DNA from: Cellulosilyticum lentocellum DSM 5427 | GTDB taxonomy: Bacteria; Bacillota; Clostridia; Lachnospirales; Cellulosilyticaceae | DNA: 64,000 nt | Reading direction: 5' to 3' | NCBI RefSeq assembly: GCF_000178835.2 | Contig: NC_015275.1 | Location: 2,439,001 to 2,503,000 of the forward strand | Shown here: one piece after another, positions 4,493-16,124 of the stretch | Numbering within the stretch: the stretch's first letter is position 1 | Layout: each line of letters begins with the position of its first letter | Position numbers and translations under genes: made by a program | Notes under the pieces: generated by a model | What the model was told of the DNA's origin: nothing | Databases searched by the model: none | What the model saw: only the letters and a program-made list of their open reading frames with translations

Positions 4493-5527
4493 TTAAAAAC
4501 AACGTTCTGTATGATTTTTTTTGCATCCATTTAATTTTTTACATTGATAGCATATCTCATTTGGAAGAGGCTCACCTTCAAAGTACGCCTTTAAATTGTT
4601 CAGTGTTGTTTCTGCTATATGCTTTAAAGCCTCTTGAGTTAAAAAGGCTTGATGAGAAGTGACTACAACATTAGGTAAAGAGACTAATCTAGCCAAAACA
4701 TCATCTTGTATTATCACATTAGAAAAATCTTCAAAAAACAGTTCTGATTCTTCTTCATATACATCTAGTCCTGCAGCACCAACCTTATGTGACTTTAAGG
4801 CTTCTAACAAACTCTCACTTTCAATTAAAGCTCCTCTAGAAGTATTAATAATCACAACGCCATCTTTCATTTGATCAAAAGTTTCTTTCTTTAATAAATG
4901 ATGAGTCTGCTCTGTAAGAGGACAATGAAGTGAAATAATATCAGCTACTTGACAGAGTTGCTCAAAACCTACATATTCAAAGTCGACATTAGATATAGGG
5001 TAGGGATCATACGCAACTACTTTCATACCAAAGCCCTTGCATATATCGATAAACACTTGTCCAATCTTTCCTGTTCCTACAACACCTATAGTTTTTCCAT
5101 GTAAATCAAAACCTGTTAAGCCACTTAAGCTAAAATTAAAATCTCTGGTTCTGTTATATGCCTTGTGTGTTTTTCGATTAAGTGTTAAAAGAAGCGCCAT
5201 TGCATGTTCTGCAATAGCATAAGGTGAATAAGCAGGTACACGAACAACATGAATCTTATTAAACGCTGCTTTAAAATCAATATTATTATAGCCAGCACAA
5301 CGCATAGCAATAATAGATATACCTAAATCATCTAATTGTTTAATGACCTGTTCATTCAAGTTATCATTAACGAAAGCAACAATGCCTTCACATCCCTTTG
5401 CTAAAGCAACAGTATCCTCATTTAACTTATTCTCAAAATATTTAATTTCGAAATCATAATTCATTATAAAAGTATCAAACCATTCCTTATCATATGGTTT
5501 TGTATCAAAAAAAGCTATTTTTCTCAT
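4493..5527 (-). CDS. ldhA: D-2-hydroxyacid dehydrogenase, probable D-lactate dehydrogenase
   Basis: 344 residues of the NAD-dependent D-2-hydroxyacid dehydrogenase family, LdhA branch. The cofactor motif GVVGTGKIG lies near residues 148-156; catalytic Arg is in INTSRGAL, Glu in GLDVYEEE and His in VTSHQAFLT. The likely reaction is reduction of pyruvate to D-lactate with NADH in the cytoplasm. Oddly, the C-terminus carries four cysteines, CYQC, C and a final C before the last Phe, resembling a small metal-binding knot. GGGAG precedes the ATG. It diverges from the superoxide reductase gene across a short shared regulatory region. Confidence 0.85.
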   Translation of the reverse strand: MRKIAFFDTKPYDKEWFDTFIMNYDFEIKYFENKLNEDTVALAKGCEGIVAFVNDNLNEQVIKQLDDLGISIIAMRCAGYNNIDFKAAFNKIHVVRVPAYSPYAIAEHAMALLLTLNRKTHKAYNRTRDFNFSLSGLTGFDLHGKTIGVVGTGKIGQVFIDICKGFGMKVVAYDPYPISNVDFEYVGFEQLCQVADIISLHCPLTEQTHHLLKKETFDQMKDGVVIINTSRGALIESESLLEALKSHKVGAAGLDVYEEESELFFEDFSNVIIQDDVLARLVSLPNVVVTSHQAFLTQEALKHIAETTLNNLKAYFEGEPLPNEICYQCKKLNGCKKNHTERCF

Positions 5528-5569
5528 AATATCTCCCTTTCTTTAAATAAGTTTTATATTATATGTAAA

Positions 5570-5619
5570 TTGACAATACTAATGGTTATTGTATAATAGA
5601 ATTATATTACAATAATCAT
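5570..5619 (+). promoter_or_regulatory. Consensus promoter inside a palindrome, upstream of superoxide reductase
   Basis: TTGACA (5570-5575) and TATAAT (5592-5597) are spaced 16 bp, a perfect vegetative promoter. It is overlapped by an inverted repeat: ATGGTTATTGTA (5582-5593) against TACAATAATCAT (5608-5619), 11 of 12 positions paired. The -10 lies inside the palindrome, as expected of a repressor site. The inner core resembles a PerR box but has a three-base rather than one-base centre, so the regulator is not assigned. Confidence 0.65.
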
Positions 5620-5681
5620 TCAAAATATTCAATGAAAATTCTAGGGATTATTGTAATAAAATACATAATGGAGGGGTTCTT

Positions 5682-6068
5682 ATGTGTGGAGAACAAAAGT
5701 TTTATATTTGTAAGCACTGTGGTAATATTATTGGTGTCATACAAAATGGTGGTGGCAAACTCATTTGCTGTAATGAAGCTATGACAGAACTTGGCTCTAA
5801 TACTACAGAGGCGGCTACTGAAAAGCATTTGCCTATTATAACTATTTCAGGAAATGAAGTAACTATAACTGTAGGTAGCATAGCACACCCTATGACAGAA
5901 GAACATCTTATTAATTGGATTTACCTCCTAACAGAAAAGGGTGGACAAAGAAAATGCCTTTTACCAGGTCAAAAGCCTATTGCTAAATTTGTCCTAACTG
6001 AAGATGATCATGTTATTGCAGCCTTTGCTTATTGCAATCTTCATGGTTTATGGAGAACCGACATATAA
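5682..6068 (+). CDS. dfx: Superoxide reductase (desulfoferrodoxin)
   Basis: 128 residues, the two-iron desulfoferrodoxin form. Center I ligands C10, C13, C29 and C30 form the desulforedoxin-like FeCys4 site. Center II ligands H49 (EKHLP), H69 (AHPM), H75, C118 and H121 (CNLHGLW) form the FeHis4Cys active site, and K48 is in the expected place. The enzyme reduces superoxide to hydrogen peroxide in the cytoplasm of anaerobes without producing O2. TGGAGGGG precedes the ATG at 5682. A strong terminator ends the unit, and the next gene is an H-NOX chemoreceptor, so the locus looks devoted to oxygen exposure. Confidence 0.95.
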   Translation: MCGEQKFYICKHCGNIIGVIQNGGGKLICCNEAMTELGSNTTEAATEKHLPIITISGNEVTITVGSIAHPMTEEHLINWIYLLTEKGGQRKCLLPGQKPIAKFVLTEDDHVIAAFAYCNLHGLWRTDI

Positions 6069-6073
6069 ATGTT

Positions 6074-6107
6074 TTAAAGTACTATAGGTTAACTATAGTA
6101 CTTTTTT
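6074..6107 (+). terminator. Intrinsic terminator after superoxide reductase
   Basis: AAAGTACTATAG pairs perfectly with CTATAGTACTTT around a five-base loop and ends in a run of T. Confidence 0.85.
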
Positions 6108-6255
6108 ACTAACTAATTCTTTTTATGTATTAAATACTAGGTTTAGATTATGTAAAGATTTCATTTCCTGTCCTAGTATTCATTGTATTTATGCTAAAAT
6201 TGTGTTAATGAAATCTCATTTAAAATGATATAATGAGATAGAAGGAGTGTGTAAT

Positions 6256-8055
6256 ATGAAAGGAACCGTTGTATCGACTTGGATTAAAACCTGCCGTAAA
6301 CTTTATAATGAACAACATATTGACGAAGCTATGGAGCTCGTTAATTGGAAGAGGGATCGTGTTTTTTCCCCTATTGAAACAGTGGATGATACGCAAATTT
6401 TCAAAGTAATTCATGCCATTGCTGAAAAGGAAAAAGTAAACGAAAAAGAACTATGGAAAATTATTGGTCATGAAAATATTAAAACCTTTCATCATGATTT
6501 TCCTTCTTTTTTCAAAACCCAAAATTTGTTTTCTTTTTTAAGGGCGCTTTTTGACGTACATATTATTATGACAAAAAAATTTAAAGGTGCTAAACCGCCA
6601 CTTGTACAAATCAAAGCCATTTCTGATTATGAAGCATTATTAACCTATGAATCTGAACGTTCTATGTTTGATTATTTTTATGGCCTCTTTGAAGGTGCTA
6701 TGCAGTACTTTAGTGAAAAACCAAAAGTCGAAGAATTAGAACGCTCAAAGAATAGCTTAACGATAAAAATTACCTTTGAAGCACCTATCTATTTTAAAAA
6801 ACGCTATTTCTTTAATAACATCTTATCTCTAGGTTTTATAAGAAGCTTACCTATTAAAAATGCTATTTTTACAGGTGTCATATCTTTGGCTATTACTTTT
6901 CCTTTATTAGGGGCTAGTTTATGGGGAAAAAGTCTCGTTTTAAGTGGTATAATAGCTGTATTAAGTGGCTTAAGCACTCACTTGCTTTTAAAACCTCAAA
7001 AGATATTAGAAGAAGAATTAGAGTTACTCTGCAATAATGAATTTAGTACTTATGGCGAAATTAAAACGAATGATTCTTTTGAAAAACTTTATGGATTAAT
7101 CAATAACTATAAAGCACTCACTCGTAAGGATTTTACAGGTATTAAAAGCGTGGTAGATGAGATGAGTTCATTTACCTCTGCATTAGGTAATATCTCTGAT
7201 TCAATGAAAGGAACTTCTAATGATATTTCAGAGGTAGTAGAACAAGTAGCTGATGGTGCTACCGAGCAAGCTAAAAATACAGAACAAGCTGCCTTTGTGT
7301 TAAACCAAAATATTCAGGCACTTAAGGAAATTGTTGAAAGTGAGCATCAGAATAAAAATGAGCTAGAAAATGCATTATCTAAAGTTAATAATAGCTATCA
7401 AGGCGTTAAAAATACCAGTGACCATATTTTTAATACCTTAGGAGAATTCGATAAAATTAGAGAAAAGGGCCTCTACCTAGAAACAAAAGTACACGATATG
7501 ACTGCCATTATTGCTATTGTTTCTCAAATTGCAGAGCAAACAAATCTACTAGCACTTAATGCTTCTATTGAAGCTGCTAGAGCAGGAGAAAATGGTCGTG
7601 GTTTCTCTGTAGTAGCTGAATCTATTAGAAAGCTAGCTGAACAGTCTAAAGCAGCTGTTCAAGAGGTTAACGCTAATCTAGCTTTATTTATTTCAGAAAT
7701 AAAGCTATTTATAGAGGCTATACAAAAAGAATATCTAAAGCTTGAAAATGAAACCAAAAATCTAGAAAGTGTAAAAAATATTAGTTTCGAGGCTAATCAA
7801 TCTATACAAGCTGTATCAAGTTCCATGATTGAACTTATCCATAGTCTTACTAAGCAAGCTGATAGTATTGGCACAGCTTCTTCCACAGTAGAAGCTTTAG
7901 CTGCTATTGCGGAAGAGAACTCTGCTTCTTCAGAAGAAGTAAGTGCTAGTGTTATTAACTATTCTCATGAAATTGGTTCTTTAGTAGATAATATACAGTC
8001 CTTTAAAACAATTACAAGTGATTTTCAACATGATCTAGATCAGCACAAGCTTTAG
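6256..8055 (+). CDS. H-NOX (haem) domain methyl-accepting chemotaxis protein, predicted O2 sensor
   Basis: 599 residues from ATG 6256 (GAAGGAG eight bases upstream; the frame is open from GTG 6247). Residues 1-180 are an H-NOX haem domain: [11 protein letters not shown] start, proximal haem ligand H102, propionate-binding Y131-x-S133-x-R135, and P115. Distal W9, N74 and Y140 are all present, the hydrogen-bond network that lets Caldanaerobacter (T. tengcongensis) H-NOX bind O2. Two membrane helices follow (about 203-222 and 226-246), no obvious HAMP, then a chemoreceptor signalling domain with hairpin tip [20 protein letters not shown] near 424-443. It should pass ligand state to CheA. Its neighbour is superoxide reductase. 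The 3' end overlaps the convergent TRIC gene by 44 bp. Confidence 0.95.
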
Positions 8056-8704
8056 AAGGAATCTTAGGTAAATTCCAGCGGTATTTAGAAGCTAATAAAC
8101 GTATAAGGAAGGTAAGTAAACTGCCTATAGTCATGGCAATAACATTATTGATATCATACTTAATAAGTAAATAATAAGAAGTACTTCCTAATAAAGCAGC
8201 TAAAAAGTAAATATGCTTTTTTAAGAAAAATGGAATTTCTCCAACTAATACATCTCTAAGCATACCACCACCAACACCTGTAATGATTCCTACAAATAAT
8301 GTTAAAAAAGCATTTTCGAAAAAACCTCCTTGCATAGCTGTTTGAACACCGATAACAGCAAATATGCCTAGGCCTATAGCATCAGCTAAATTGAGTAGTG
8401 AACCGAAGGTTGAACTCAAATGATTTTTAAATTGATAATGATAATATTGCGTTATGTATGCTACGATAAAAGCTATTACAGTAGTTAATGCTGCAACTAT
8501 AACATAAATAGGATTAACAAATAATAGCGGAGGGTGAGAACCTAGCAAAATATCTCTTATTAACCCTCCTCCTGTAGCAGCCGTTACACCTAAAATAGTA
8601 ATACCTAATAAATCTAATTGCTTTTCAATACCTCTTAAAGCGCCAGAAAGAGCAAAAGCAATGGTACCTATGATTTCTATTGAAAAAATCAGAGTTTCAA
8701 TCAC
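8012..8704 (-). CDS. TRIC/UPF0126 family membrane protein, glycine-riboswitch controlled, probable glycine transporter
   Basis: 230 residues with two homologous halves, each containing a glycine-rich motif: [15 protein letters not shown] in the first and [14 protein letters not shown] in the second, diagnostic of UPF0126 (bacterial TRIC, YicG-like). About seven membrane helices. Structurally characterised TRIC proteins conduct cations, but the tandem glycine riboswitch directly upstream argues that this member handles glycine, possibly uptake or export. It starts with GTG at 8704, nine bases after GAGGT. The 3' 44 bp overlap the end of the convergent chemoreceptor gene. Confidence 0.9.
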
Positions 8705-8746
8705 AATTTTATAACCTCACATTCTTATTATTAAAGTTTTTCAAAC

Positions 8747-8798
8747 AAAAAAGAGGATAAAAAGCAATTATAAAAAATATAATTGCCTTTTATCCTCT
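8747..8798 (-). terminator. Riboswitch expression-platform terminator
   Basis: On the minus strand a stem of about 20 bp, starting AGAGGATAAAAGGCAATTAT and closed by its complement, ends in TTTTTT. Its 5' arm begins with the AGAG that also ends the second aptamer's closing helix, so ligand binding should compete with terminator formation, an ON-switch arrangement. Confidence 0.85.
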
Positions 8799-8973
8799 GT
8801 CCTTTTACCTGAAAGCTTACCTATTGGTTTTCCTCGTCGGTGGTGTCAATTCTACGCAGACACGCTCTCCAGATTTACGTCCCTTGACTGTATTGTACCT
8901 GAGAGTTTCAACATCTACCTGGCTTATAGCTGTTTTGCTTCTTCGGTTATTATGTAGTACATAATATCTCCAG
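8795..8973 (-). promoter_or_regulatory. Tandem glycine riboswitch (gcvT motif)
   Basis: Read on the minus strand, the region holds two glycine aptamers in series. Aptamer 1 begins GGAGATATTATG, contains AACCGAAGAAGCAAAA and closes with ACTCTCAGGTACA. Aptamer 2 begins CTGGAGAGCGTGTCTG, contains ACACCACCGACGAGGAAAAC and closes with TTTCAGGTAAAAGGACAGAG. The CCGA-purine-GCAAA and CAGGUAAAAGGACAGAG segments are hallmark conserved bases of the family. It lies between a promoter and the TRIC-family gene and feeds into an intrinsic terminator. A protein-like frame across it on the same strand is spurious. Confidence 0.95.
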
Positions 8974-9734: not shown

Positions 9735-11366
9735 TTATTTTGTTTGCTTCCAAGCTTCTACATACTGATTAAAAATTGCATTAATAGCATCACCAATTTG
9801 TGCATAAGCTTCATCTGGTAAATTAGCCAATGAAACACGGATTGACCAATCAGGACCTTTAAAACCATTACCATTTAATAACACAATGGCATATTCTTGA
9901 GCGAGACGAAAAAGAATATCCTCCGGTGCATAATGTATTTCTAAATAATTAACAAACTCTTCATTGTATTTAACTCGAGCCCACACAAGTAAATCAATTT
10001 CACTATAATAAGCTGTATTATGAGGTTGCAAATAAAGTGGTAAATCTAAGTGATCATATAAGAGTTTAAGGCGTCTATGGCAAATTTCTTGCGTTTGTTT
10101 TTTATAGCAATTTTCTTTGTCAAGTAAGGCAAAGACAGAGAAAATTGCCATTTGTGCTTGCTGTGGTGTGGACAAACCAGCTGTATGATTTAAAGCTACT
10201 TGCCTACTATCTGCTACAATACGATCAATAAAAGTAATATCTCTTGGATTATTAGTTAATGCACCATAACGATGATCTAAATCAGAGATGACTTCTGGTG
10301 GTAACTCTCTAATAAGCTGATCAAATATATTTTTTTTGCTAATAGCAATAAGACCTAGTCTCCAACCTGTTACCCCAAAATACTTAGAATATGAATACAC
10401 ACCTATTGTTTGTTCTGGAATTTCTGTCATTAGTGATTTAAAGTTATTGGTAAACGTACCATAAACATCATCTGTAATAATCATTAATTTAGGATTTTTT
10501 TCTTTGATAATCTGCTTCATATAAATAATTGATTCGTCATTGATAGCTACTGAAGGAGGATTACTTGGATTAACTAAAAAAAGTGCTTTAACAGTTTTAT
10601 CTGCTATTTTATCTAGTTCTTCTTTTGGATATTGCCAGTTGTGTCTTCCTTCCTCATTAATTTCACTGGCATGAATATTAGTTACTTTAAGTGCATAGCG
10701 GCTTAAATGAGGAATTTCTAAATAAGGCGTAAAAATAGGAACCATTAGAGCAATATGATCCCCTTTTTCCAAAAGATGATTAGCCATCATACTATCAAAG
10801 ATATAGCACATTGCAGCCGTTCCACCTTCTACAGCGAATAGGTCGTGTGTTACTTCTTTAGGAATGACTCTTCCCATTTCTTGCATTAAATAATCATATA
10901 CTACTTTCTCTATACAATGAAGCATACGGTCTGGCATAGGATAATGATCGCCTATAATAGCATCCACTAATTCATAAATCCAACGATTTTTATTAAAACC
11001 ATGTACCTTAACACCGTATTCAATCACACCAGAAAGTAGATCTAAACCAGGTAAATGCTTATTATTAGCTACAAACTCATCAAAGTGCATATCAATATCT
11101 TTTACATAAGGCATTCCTGCTAAATCATTTTTTTCTACATCACGCTTCGTTTCTTCTACTGCAAATAAACCTAGTGTAAAAAAAGCCTGACGCGGTGTAG
11201 ATGCAGTCCAATTGGGATTTCCTCTTCCAGCATTTAAAAAAGTAGCCACGCCTTTCTTTTCTGTGCTTTTTGCCATAGCAATAAGTTTATTTTTTAGTTC
11301 AAAAGGGCTTAAATTTTTATATTCTTTTACAAGTTCTTTTATTTCTTCTGTTCCTTTTAAAATCAC
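9735..11366 (-). CDS. aspD: Bifunctional aspartate aminotransferase / aspartate 4-decarboxylase
   Basis: 543 residues, the full length expected for L-aspartate beta-decarboxylase of PLP fold-type I. Features include GRGNPNW near the N-terminus, the VEGGTAAMCY cofactor loop, FLVNPSNPPS, DDVYGTF and the PLP-binding Lys in YSYSKYFGVTGWR. The enzyme converts aspartate to alanine and CO2 in the cytoplasm and, with the AspT antiporter, can generate proton-motive force. It starts with GTG at 11366, eight bases after GAGG. The upstream gene, which would be aspT, is degraded here, so the energy-conserving cycle is probably lost unless another transporter exists. Confidence 0.93.
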   Translation of the reverse strand: MILKGTEEIKELVKEYKNLSPFELKNKLIAMAKSTEKKGVATFLNAGRGNPNWTASTPRQAFFTLGLFAVEETKRDVEKNDLAGMPYVKDIDMHFDEFVANNKHLPGLDLLSGVIEYGVKVHGFNKNRWIYELVDAIIGDHYPMPDRMLHCIEKVVYDYLMQEMGRVIPKEVTHDLFAVEGGTAAMCYIFDSMMANHLLEKGDHIALMVPIFTPYLEIPHLSRYALKVTNIHASEINEEGRHNWQYPKEELDKIADKTVKALFLVNPSNPPSVAINDESIIYMKQIIKEKNPKLMIITDDVYGTFTNNFKSLMTEIPEQTIGVYSYSKYFGVTGWRLGLIAISKKNIFDQLIRELPPEVISDLDHRYGALTNNPRDITFIDRIVADSRQVALNHTAGLSTPQQAQMAIFSVFALLDKENCYKKQTQEICHRRLKLLYDHLDLPLYLQPHNTAYYSEIDLLVWARVKYNEEFVNYLEIHYAPEDILFRLAQEYAIVLLNGNGFKGPDWSIRVSLANLPDEAYAQIGDAINAIFNQYVEAWKQTK

Positions 11367-11403: not shown

Positions 11404-11863
11404 CTATGAGAAAAATAATACGACTATTGATCCCCAAATAAGTGCGCCATTCCATGTTTGCCCTACATGATTTTCTGCAATAATAAAGCTACGGTATTCT
11501 ACAACAGAAGCACCAGAATAAATACCATAGCCTTCAATTACTTTTTGTGATTTTTCATCAATCTTCTTACATTCTTCTGGAAGGTTTATACCTAATAACT
11601 TGGGTGCAATTGTTGAAAGAAAAAAAAGCGCTACCAATGGTCCCCAAAATATAAGTAACGGCATAACCAATAGGTACAAAGTCTGACATAAGCTTGATAT
11701 CTGCTGGTGGCACCTTTAAACTTGCAATAGCCCCTTGCCCTACACCAATAACAGCTGATTGGGTTAAGACGACTACTGTAATCCCTGTTGCTTGTCCTGC
11801 ATTATACCCTAAAATCTTTCCTGCAATAATAACAAGAAAAGCGCTAATTCAGGATAATCTCTT
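11404..11863 (-). pseudogene. aspT: Aspartate-alanine antiporter (aspT) remnant
   Basis: Reading the minus strand from about 11846, one frame gives an AspT/YidE-type membrane segment (AGKILGYNAGQATGITVVVL, TQSAVIGVGQGAIASLKVPP, then PIGYAVTYILGTIG). An eight-T run at about 11629-11636 then shifts the frame, after which FLSTIAPKLLGINLPEECKK continues in the next frame. The usual RCK-type domain and second membrane half are missing, with only a WNGALIWGSIVVLFFS tail. The 5' part is cut off exactly where a 213-bp inverted repeat begins (11864). Position directly upstream of aspD matches the usual aspT-aspD operon. Confidence in loss of function is high; the family call is moderately high. Confidence 0.75.
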
Positions 11864-12076
11864 CGCCTACTAGAAGTATGTGGTATACGACTTTAAGCGT
11901 GTTTGAATGATAGGAGAAGAGATGACTTTTGAAGAACTAAAGGAACAAGCAAAAAATTTATCACTTACACCGGGTGTTTATTTAATGAAAGATCGAGAAG
12001 GCTATGTCATTTATGTTGGGAAATCTAAACACTTAAAAAATCGTGTAAGTTCTTATTTTGGAAGCTTAAAGCATGT
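11864..12076. repeat. 213-bp inverted repeat, left copy
   Basis: This segment is the reverse complement of 13076-13288, apparently without mismatch over 213 bp. It contains the last ten codons and stop of the amidohydrolase gene, the AGGAG ribosome site, and the first codons of the UvrC-like gene through LKHV. The two copies are separated by 999 bp. Confidence 0.9.
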
Positions 12077-12125
12077 TCCTATTTTAACCAATTTAATAAA
12101 CCTGTACATGATTACCACTCAATAA
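11922..12125 (+). pseudogene. Duplicate 5' fragment of the UvrC-like gene
   Basis: The first 52 codons, from ATG 11922 with its AGGAG, are identical to the start of the intact UvrC-like gene on the opposite strand, then the frame leaves homology at 12077 and ends after 15 unrelated residues. It retains the GIY-YIG core motif ([16 protein letters not shown]) but no catalytic glutamate. It is inert as it stands, but an inversion between the repeats would complete it. Confidence 0.8.
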
Positions 12126-12162
12126 GCTTTAGTTTTTCCGTATCAGTAAATTTTATTCTTTA

Positions 12163-15016: not shown

Positions 15017-16124
15017 ATGGCTAGTTATCAAGAACGTCGTCAAAAATATGTAACGCTTAAAACAAGGGAATTACTCCAAACGCTTCCCCCCTATATTTTT
15101 GACTTTTTTTAGAGGAATAGAACATACTAGTAGCGCTAATACAAGACTCGCTTATGCTTATGACATTAGAGTTTATTTAAACTTCCTACATGAATCTATT
15201 CCTGGTTTAAAAGACTTACCTTCTATTGCTGCTATTACACTAGAACAATTAGAATCTATTACACCAAGAGATATCGAACGTTATTTAGAATACTTATCCT
15301 ACTACGAAATAAGTAATAAAGATCATACGCATCATGCACCACTTTCACCTGCTGCAGCTCAGGAGAATTTGAATAATGGACAATATCATCAAAATGGGCA
15401 AACAGGAAAAGCAAGAAAATTGGCATCCATTAAAACGCTATACAATTACTTTTACAAACAGCAACGTATTCTACATAATCCAACTTCCTTAGTAGATATG
15501 CCTAAAATCTATGAAAAACCCATTATTAAACTCGATGTAGATGAAATCGCAAAGTTATTAGACGTGGTTGAATCTGGTGAACAATTAACCGATAAGCAAA
15601 AGATTTATCATGAGTTTACTCGAAAAAGAGATTTAGCTATTGTAGCCGTTCTTCTTGGAACAGGCATTCGTGTTTCAGAATGTGTAGGTATTAATATAGA
15701 AGATATTGACTTCAACTATAATGGTATTAAAATCACTCGCAAGGGTGGTAATGAAACTATTATTTACTTTAGTAAAGAAGTAGAAAAGATTTTAAGAGAC
15801 TATTTAACCAATAGGCGTACTAAAACTTGTAAGGATATTGATCATCCTCTATTTCTTTCTTTGCAAAATAAACGTATTTCTGTACGTAGTGTACAGTTAC
15901 TAGTTAAAAAATATAGTAGTTTAGTAACTCAATTAAAGAAAATAACACCTCATAAACTTCGTTCTACCTATGGTACCCAACTTTATCAAGAAACTGGTGA
16001 TATTTATTTAGTTGCTGATGTCCTAGGACATAAGGATGTGAATACCACTAAAAAACATTATGCCCAAATGGATGATGCCCGCAAACGTTATGCTGCTTCT
16101 ATTATTAAACTCCGCGAAGAATAA
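15017..16124 (+). CDS. xerS: XerS-like tyrosine recombinase, interrupted by a one-base frameshift
   Basis: The gene starts at ATG 15017 after AAGGAGGG, directly behind the TtcA-like stop. The first frame reads MASYQERRQKYVTLKTRELL and then QTLPPYIFDFF before hitting TAG after seven T (15104-15110). Dropping one T joins FDFF to RGIEHTSSANTRLAYAYDIR and a complete recombinase, total 368 residues, normal for the family. The catalytic set is present: Arg in TGIRVSE, Lys in TRKGGNE, HKLRSTYG, and GHKDVNTTKKHY with the nucleophilic Tyr. Role: chromosome-dimer resolution or site-specific recombination. The break may be a sequencing error, phase variation, or +1 recoding (UUU-UAG). Downstream TTG at 15099 has no ribosome site. 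Confidence 0.8.

Follow-up and report, generated by a model that had tools for sequence, protein, structure and literature searches.

The H-NOX chemoreceptor of Cellulosilyticum lentocellum: oxygen-type pocket residues, relationships within its family and the question of haem supply

H-NOX proteins that bear a distal tyrosine, are bound to the membrane and are fused to an MCP have been described as likely O2 sensors for chemotaxis, according to the available text of one review (PMC8738867). The H-NOX of Caldanaerobacter subterraneus (Thermoanaerobacter tengcongensis; hereafter Tt), with structures 1xbn, 1u4h and 1u55, is fused to an MCP in this way in the accessible parts of PMC8738867 and PMC9814294, and even for this protein the second of these, in the same accessible part, calls the presumed function not yet demonstrated. 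A reference title listed there claims femtomolar sensitivity for an NO sensor of Clostridium botulinum. The residues nearest the ligand are identical in the C. botulinum and Caldanaerobacter proteins according to PMC7356049 (citing Wu et al. 2015), which gives them KD values for O2 of 5.3e-5 M and 4.4e-8 M, respectively, a gap of approximately 1200-fold between these two relatives; the likeness of the C. botulinum protein to the receptor studied here is taken from that description, and its published O2 affinity is weak. In contrast, the H-NOX proteins of facultative anaerobes (Shewanella, Vibrio) share the fold, but they are stand-alone proteins located beside kinase or cyclic-di-GMP genes, and are NO-specific without a stable O2 complex, as far as the available sections of PMC8738867 and PMC9814294 describe them.

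The gene analysed here lies in a window of 64,000 nt from C. lentocellum DSM 5427 (Clostridia, Lachnospirales, Cellulosilyticaceae), to which all positions below refer (Table 1). Its product matches HNOB (PF07700) over residues 2-159, covering profile positions 1-162 of 163 (147.4 bits, cut-off 25.5), and MCPsignal (PF00015) over residues 394-550 (98.9 bits, cut-off 34.6). The sequence AGAAGGAG stands just before the ATG start. The open reading frame listing also offers a GTG at 6247, three codons earlier; M1 of the opening MKGT is invariant across 18 aligned domains, and the ATG at 6256 is therefore favoured. At its 3' end, the gene overlaps a convergent gene for a PF03458 membrane protein (8012-8704, minus strand) tail to tail by 44 bp (8012-8055).

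Table 1. Positions in the window of the receptor gene, its parts and the upstream features.
Feature	Position	Strand	Basis and remarks
H-NOX chemoreceptor gene	6256..8055	+	599 aa; translation, Pfam HNOB and MCPsignal
H-NOX haem domain, residues 1-182	6256..6801	+	Alignment to 1xbn/1u4h, gapless to about residue 165; Foldseek
Two predicted transmembrane helices, tight hairpin, residues 198-244 in the model	6847..6987	+	Hydropathy and AlphaFold2
Linker helix and break ahead of the signalling coil, residues 246-273	6991..7074	+	AlphaFold2 secondary structure, conservation
Chemoreceptor coiled-coil hairpin with signalling tip, residues 274-595	7075..8040	+	MCPsignal, AlphaFold2 model
Superoxide reductase (desulfoferrodoxin) gene	5682..6068	+	PF01880 and PF06397 over cut-off
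Promoter-like TTGACA-16-TATAAT ahead of the superoxide reductase gene	5570..5597	+	12/12 match
Terminator-like hairpin between the superoxide reductase and receptor genes	6076..6107	+	12-pair stem, 3' arm running into six T

The hydropathy maxima of the receptor (residues 204-222 and 227-245) coincide broadly with two helices of the AlphaFold2 model (198-218 and 220-244), which are followed by coiled-coil arms at 274-442 and 444-595. The model was built from an alignment of 49 sequences and reached a mean pLDDT of 79.3 and a pTM of 0.51, a low value that makes the relative placing of the domains unreliable. In a Foldseek search with the full-length model, the top PDB match was 1u4h (TM-score by target 0.90), in line with the H-NOX fold; Shewanella structures were also among the matches. 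The two membrane helices turn back on each other with scarcely any loop between them, which should place the haem domain as well as the signalling tip in the cytoplasm. The linker has a HAMP-like layout (helix-break-helix, with P247 and D273 conserved), and no Pfam HAMP match was obtained in the receptor protein at E up to 1, nor was HAMP among the 25 commonest families in 49 scanned members. The stretch linking the haem domain to the first membrane helix contains an S-x-G-F-I-K/R segment (residues 190-201, positions 6823-6858), in which S191, G193 and K201 are each conserved in at least 95% of 123 full-length rows; it is a candidate for the element passing the signal. HNOB, MCPsignal, hydropathy and the AlphaFold2 model thus agree with the original prediction of an H-NOX chemoreceptor with two membrane helices and a chemoreceptor tip.

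The haem domain is readily compared with that of Caldanaerobacter. Phmmer matches the receptor to 1xbn/1u4h at E values of about 3e-46 to 4e-46, and 70 of 165 residues are identical (42%), with no gap up to approximately residue 165, so that the Tt numbering can be transferred directly. W9, N74, H102, P115, Y131, S133, R135 and Y140 are all present, and D45, I75, F78, F82 and L144 are likewise kept, while V5, F85 and L98 replace I5, Y85 and M98 of Tt. The receptor therefore carries the proximal His102 and the Y-x-S-x-R haem motif (Y131, S133, R135) by which H-NOX proteins are recognised, the distal Tyr140, Trp9 and Asn74 of the O2-binding H-NOX of obligate anaerobes, and, like the latter, a chemoreceptor fusion with a membrane anchor (MCPsignal and two hydrophobic helices). 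The eight positions had been correctly named beforehand from the receptor sequence, and Tyr140, whose distal placement had been singled out as decisive, aligns with the distal residue of 1xbn/1u4h.

This residue set is, nevertheless, a property of the family. HNOB was matched in 38 of 391 genomes of the class, and all eight residues were found in 35 of these; the exceptions are a gene split over two contigs, whose readable residues are as expected (G170), a sequence with a gap at H102 (G364) and a 75-residue fragment with only W9 (G226). Tyr140 is present in 37/37 class genomes whose H-NOX covers that column. In a set of 146 genomes of relatives, 22 (C. lentocellum included) have an HNOB match, and 19 of the 22 carry the whole set, two having Ala at 115 and one being a fragment. 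Counted over alignment rows other than Tt, some of which represent the same gene twice, the set is complete in 128/131 and Tyr140 present in 130/130 of those covering the column. HNOB and MCPsignal occur together in all 49 full-length aligned relatives scanned. The near-invariance of the eight residues among relatives makes them a family trait that does not single out the C. lentocellum receptor, which is a typical representative of a receptor class already described. Within the sets searched, the distribution is patchy, with H-NOX matches in 2/7 genomes of the genus and 8/24 of the family. The closest named relative of the domain, among the best 80 of 126 relatives, is that of Cellulosilyticum sp. 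SIG270 (72% identity), and the H-NOX chemoreceptors of Clostridium, Tissierella and Sporanaerobium, with frames of mostly about 600 residues and the same eight residues, belong to the same clade with domain identities of up to 57%.

In a tree of 90 domains, 14 rows grouped with Tt and 76 with Clostridium, Tissierella and Cellulosilyticum, the split being supported at 100/100; Tt itself was flagged as a long branch, making its own placing less sure. The C. lentocellum domain falls in the 76-row half, paired with SIG270 (100/100) and thus on the opposite side of the split from the Caldanaerobacter domain. Every row of the genus name Clostridium also belongs to this half. The C. botulinum domain (SONO), whose sequence is outside the 90-domain set, would be expected on the C. 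lentocellum side. Twelve positions separate the two halves when 25 Caldanaerobacter-side rows (14 in the tree and 11 assigned by resemblance) are compared with 75 named rows from the opposite half. At seven of them (37, 81, 85, 90, 105, 108 and 109), C. lentocellum has the majority letter of the second half, at 92, 97 and 104 it has letters found only on the Clostridium side, and at 35 and 84 it has the majority letter of the Tt side. The Caldanaerobacter and C. lentocellum domains differ from each other at 37, 81, 85, 97, 104, 105, 108 and 109, among others. Taken together, the position on the Clostridium side, the splitting positions and the published affinities suggest that a micromolar O2 affinity is at least as likely for this receptor as a nanomolar one. 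The expectation that the full residue set would bring stable O2 binding of the Caldanaerobacter kind is therefore not sustained, as C. botulinum shares the residues closest to the ligand and yet differs about 1200-fold, and the domain lies on the Clostridium side.

The same observations lend some weight to a different ligand. It is possible, if somewhat unlikely, that the receptor is mainly an NO repellent receptor, in which the distal Tyr is kept for the structure of the pocket and O2 is bound too weakly to play a part in the habitat of an anaerobe. The grouping with Clostridium rather than Caldanaerobacter is consistent with this, as are the 53 micromolar KD of the C. botulinum protein for O2 (in the accessible part of PMC7356049), the naming of a C. 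botulinum protein as a femtomolar NO sensor in the title cited in the available part of PMC9814294, and a flavodiiron-type protein encoded near the receptor of SIG270, described below. However, a pure NO sensor has no obvious need for near-invariant Tyr140, Trp9 and Asn74, and the Tyr-bearing, MCP-fused class is assigned to O2 in the review text available to us (PMC8738867).

Regarding the output, the C. lentocellum genome (4,714,237 bases, one contig) has a single match for CheA, four for flagellin and 36 for MCPs. Of 30 MCP loci compared among these matches, 28 have a recognisable signalling tip, and 11 of these, among them the receptor, are identical over a 17-residue stretch of the tip. 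With CheA, flagellin and further MCPs encoded in the genome, several of them sharing this stretch, a role in chemotaxis is possible, and the receptor may work with the cell's own CheA. No SigD-type promoter (TAAA-N12-17-CGATAA) was found upstream of the receptor gene; the pattern occurs three times in the window, a number reached in 19 of 100 shuffles.

On this basis, we consider the protein to be a membrane-anchored chemoreceptor with a cytoplasmic H-NOX domain on His102-ligated haem, for which O2 is the likeliest ligand and acts as a repellent at micromolar levels, with a probability of roughly 0.6. The domain identity, the residues, the predicted architecture, the occurrence in the genome of CheA, flagellin and further MCPs, and the family membership are established directly, and from them we infer the gas ligand, its affinity range, the direction of the response, the signal path and the outside origin of the haem. 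A diatomic gas would bind the His102-ligated haem in the cytoplasmic N-terminal domain, the membrane helices serving as an anchor and not as the stem of an outside sensor. The ligand, on the side of Tyr140, Trp9 and Asn74, would alter the distortion of the haem, on the side of Pro115 and Arg135; this distortion could be relayed by the conserved S-x-G-F-I-K/R segment, then by the membrane hairpin and the linker, until it reaches the coiled coil, whose change would alter CheA activity and swimming. O2, most likely the physiological ligand, would be sensed at micromolar rather than nanomolar levels, and NO would also be expected to bind. A repellent response to O2 is plausible; from the sequence data, the best reading is a repellent receptor likely sensing O2 and perhaps also NO.

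The gene order at the locus had suggested a link with superoxide reductase. The adjacency itself holds, since the superoxide reductase gene lies 187 bp upstream on the same strand. Its product scores 138.9 bits with TIGR00320, below the cut-off of 146.9, and the domain models TIGR00332 and TIGR00319 are over their cut-offs. That the two genes form one oxidative-stress module is, in contrast, highly improbable. The adjacency on the same strand in C. lentocellum would fit such a module, as would the SIG270 locus, where the receptor gene has superoxide reductase 4.4 kb downstream and, 1.6 kb upstream, a flavodiiron-type protein (with ODP, flavodoxin, flavin reductase and rubredoxin-like domains). 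Flavodiiron proteins are a class of O2 or NO reductases. However, the T-run hairpin separates the two genes in C. lentocellum, and the perfect promoter-like site precedes superoxide reductase. The fold of 6068-6110 has an energy of -15.5 kcal/mol (z -4.95), equalled in stability by 0/200 shuffles, and the terminator scan did not include this hairpin among its calls; promoter-like sites of this kind number 18 in 5500-8800 against a shuffle mean of 14.8, that is, near chance. The superoxide reductase gene is thus probably a transcription unit separate from the receptor. In SIG270, moreover, the gene lies on the other side of the receptor, and superoxide reductase was detected at none of the remaining 79 named loci. 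The 80 loci compared are the best among 126 relatives drawn by one peptide pattern; 61 span at least 10 kb and 19 are shorter. Among six loci of the family with wider flanks, it was found only at the SIG270-type locus. What remains of the proposed context is the adjacency, superoxide reductase not being a conserved partner at the loci compared.

These counts come from phmmer searches with the C. lentocellum superoxide reductase against open reading frames of at least 60 residues (E up to 1e-4, then 1e-2), which a very divergent superoxide reductase could escape; over loci L001-L136, they returned only C. lentocellum and SIG270, and a conserved link between receptor and superoxide reductase was rejected. 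A flavodiiron neighbour as a family trait was likewise rejected, being found within L001-L136 only at L057 and, with E 3.8e-49, at L028. Some other genes are repeatedly found next to the receptor (in as many as 35 of the 80 loci), and no oxidative-stress gene was recognised by eye among the commonest groups (first 120 residues). Farther downstream in the window, an apparent decayed remnant of an aspartate-alanine antiporter gene (11404-11679, minus strand; TIGR03802 match over residues 167-234 of 562, E 6.6e-5, far under cut-off) lies upstream of an intact aspartate 4-decarboxylase gene (9735-11366; TIGR03801, 800 bits), the rest of the antiporter frame (11680-12162) being full of stops, and a tyrosine recombinase gene (Phage_integrase, PF00589) is located at 15099-16124 on the plus strand.

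Markers of haem synthesis, haem use and haem uptake were searched in 48 of 59 H-NOX-bearing genomes, leaving out G093, G132, G133, G170, G226, G310, G364, G411, G413, G417 and G442, which are less complete or have the gene split or only as a fragment. Cytochrome bd was matched in none of the 48, C. lentocellum included (10/14 controls match), which fits a non-respiring anaerobe. Ferrochelatase was also matched in 0/48 genomes, compared with 8/14 controls. Its lack was rejected as a trait of H-NOX carriers, as only 8 of 291 genomes of the class at large, a draw that includes H-NOX carriers, match at E up to 0.001, seven of them over cut-off. For AhbD, scores alone are meaningful, because radical-SAM relatives give every one of the 48 genomes and of the 14 controls some match at E up to 0.001: none of the 48 exceeds the cut-off of 500 bits and 41 have no match above 340 bits, C. 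lentocellum reaching 173 bits. The matches of the other seven (341-362 bits) each lie next to a second related gene and are possible Ahb pairs. ALAD is present in 32/48 genomes, including C. lentocellum, as corrinoid or sirohaem synthesis would require. By these markers, C. lentocellum appears to start tetrapyrrole synthesis and not to finish haem by a recognised route. With neither ferrochelatase nor a convincing alternative, the haem would come from elsewhere, probably scavenged from outside, or be made by an unknown route, and the haem occupancy of the receptor in the cell is thus not assured.

The uptake marker used, the IsdE model, was over cut-off in 2/48 genomes, with three more at 243-278 bits and C. 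lentocellum at 102 bits. In three genomes of one family (G081, G155 and G199), the region about 2.3-2.5 kb past the end of the H-NOX gene gives IsdE-model matches of 105-122 bits (cut-off 298.65), and a fourth genome, G132, shows the same arrangement. At loci L183, L184 and L185 (of G155, G081 and G132, respectively), the receptor stands tail to tail with a FecCD-type ABC importer operon. The best models for the L183 permease and ATPase are B12/corrinoid transporters, both under cut-off; the ATPase barely passes a haem-ABC model (261.3 bits, cut-off 261), an argument for haem, and the binding protein is over cut-off only for a broad metal-receptor model. The models point to corrinoid or haem as the substrate. 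A precedent for Clostridia using outside haem is provided by Clostridioides difficile, which has haem-sensing regulators, the accessible part of PMC12670364 citing a paper titled as the hijacking of host haem.

These results bear on a further reading, in which the receptor is largely haem-free unless haem is scavenged, and so reports haem together with gas (coincidence detection), or else uses another tetrapyrrole. We find this doubtful. It would agree with the missing ferrochelatase in all 48 genomes, with the weak AhbD scores and with the 16/48 genomes that have no ALAD. Nevertheless, the lack of ferrochelatase is class-wide and not tied to H-NOX, the near-invariant His102 and Y-S-R triad argue that haem is used, and uptake was probed by the IsdE model alone. 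Equally improbable, in our estimate, is the broader idea that Clostridia, mostly unable to make haem by a known route, use their H-NOX chemoreceptors as haem sensors, the receptor output being set jointly by scavenged haem and O2 or NO. If it were true, gas taxis would occur only where environmental haem (from decaying tissue, the host gut or mixed communities) has loaded the receptor. A literature search, mostly outside subscription journals, found no paper on H-NOX in haem non-producers.

By itself, the C. lentocellum receptor adds one more uncharacterised member to a known class, and the useful yield of the comparison lies in a caution and a question that concern the whole family. The caution is that the Tyr/Trp/Asn set, being near-invariant, cannot rank family members by O2 affinity, and positions 37, 81, 85, 97, 104, 105, 108 and 109 are better candidates for an affinity difference between the two halves of the tree. 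The question is where bacteria without ferrochelatase obtain the haem of their H-NOX proteins.
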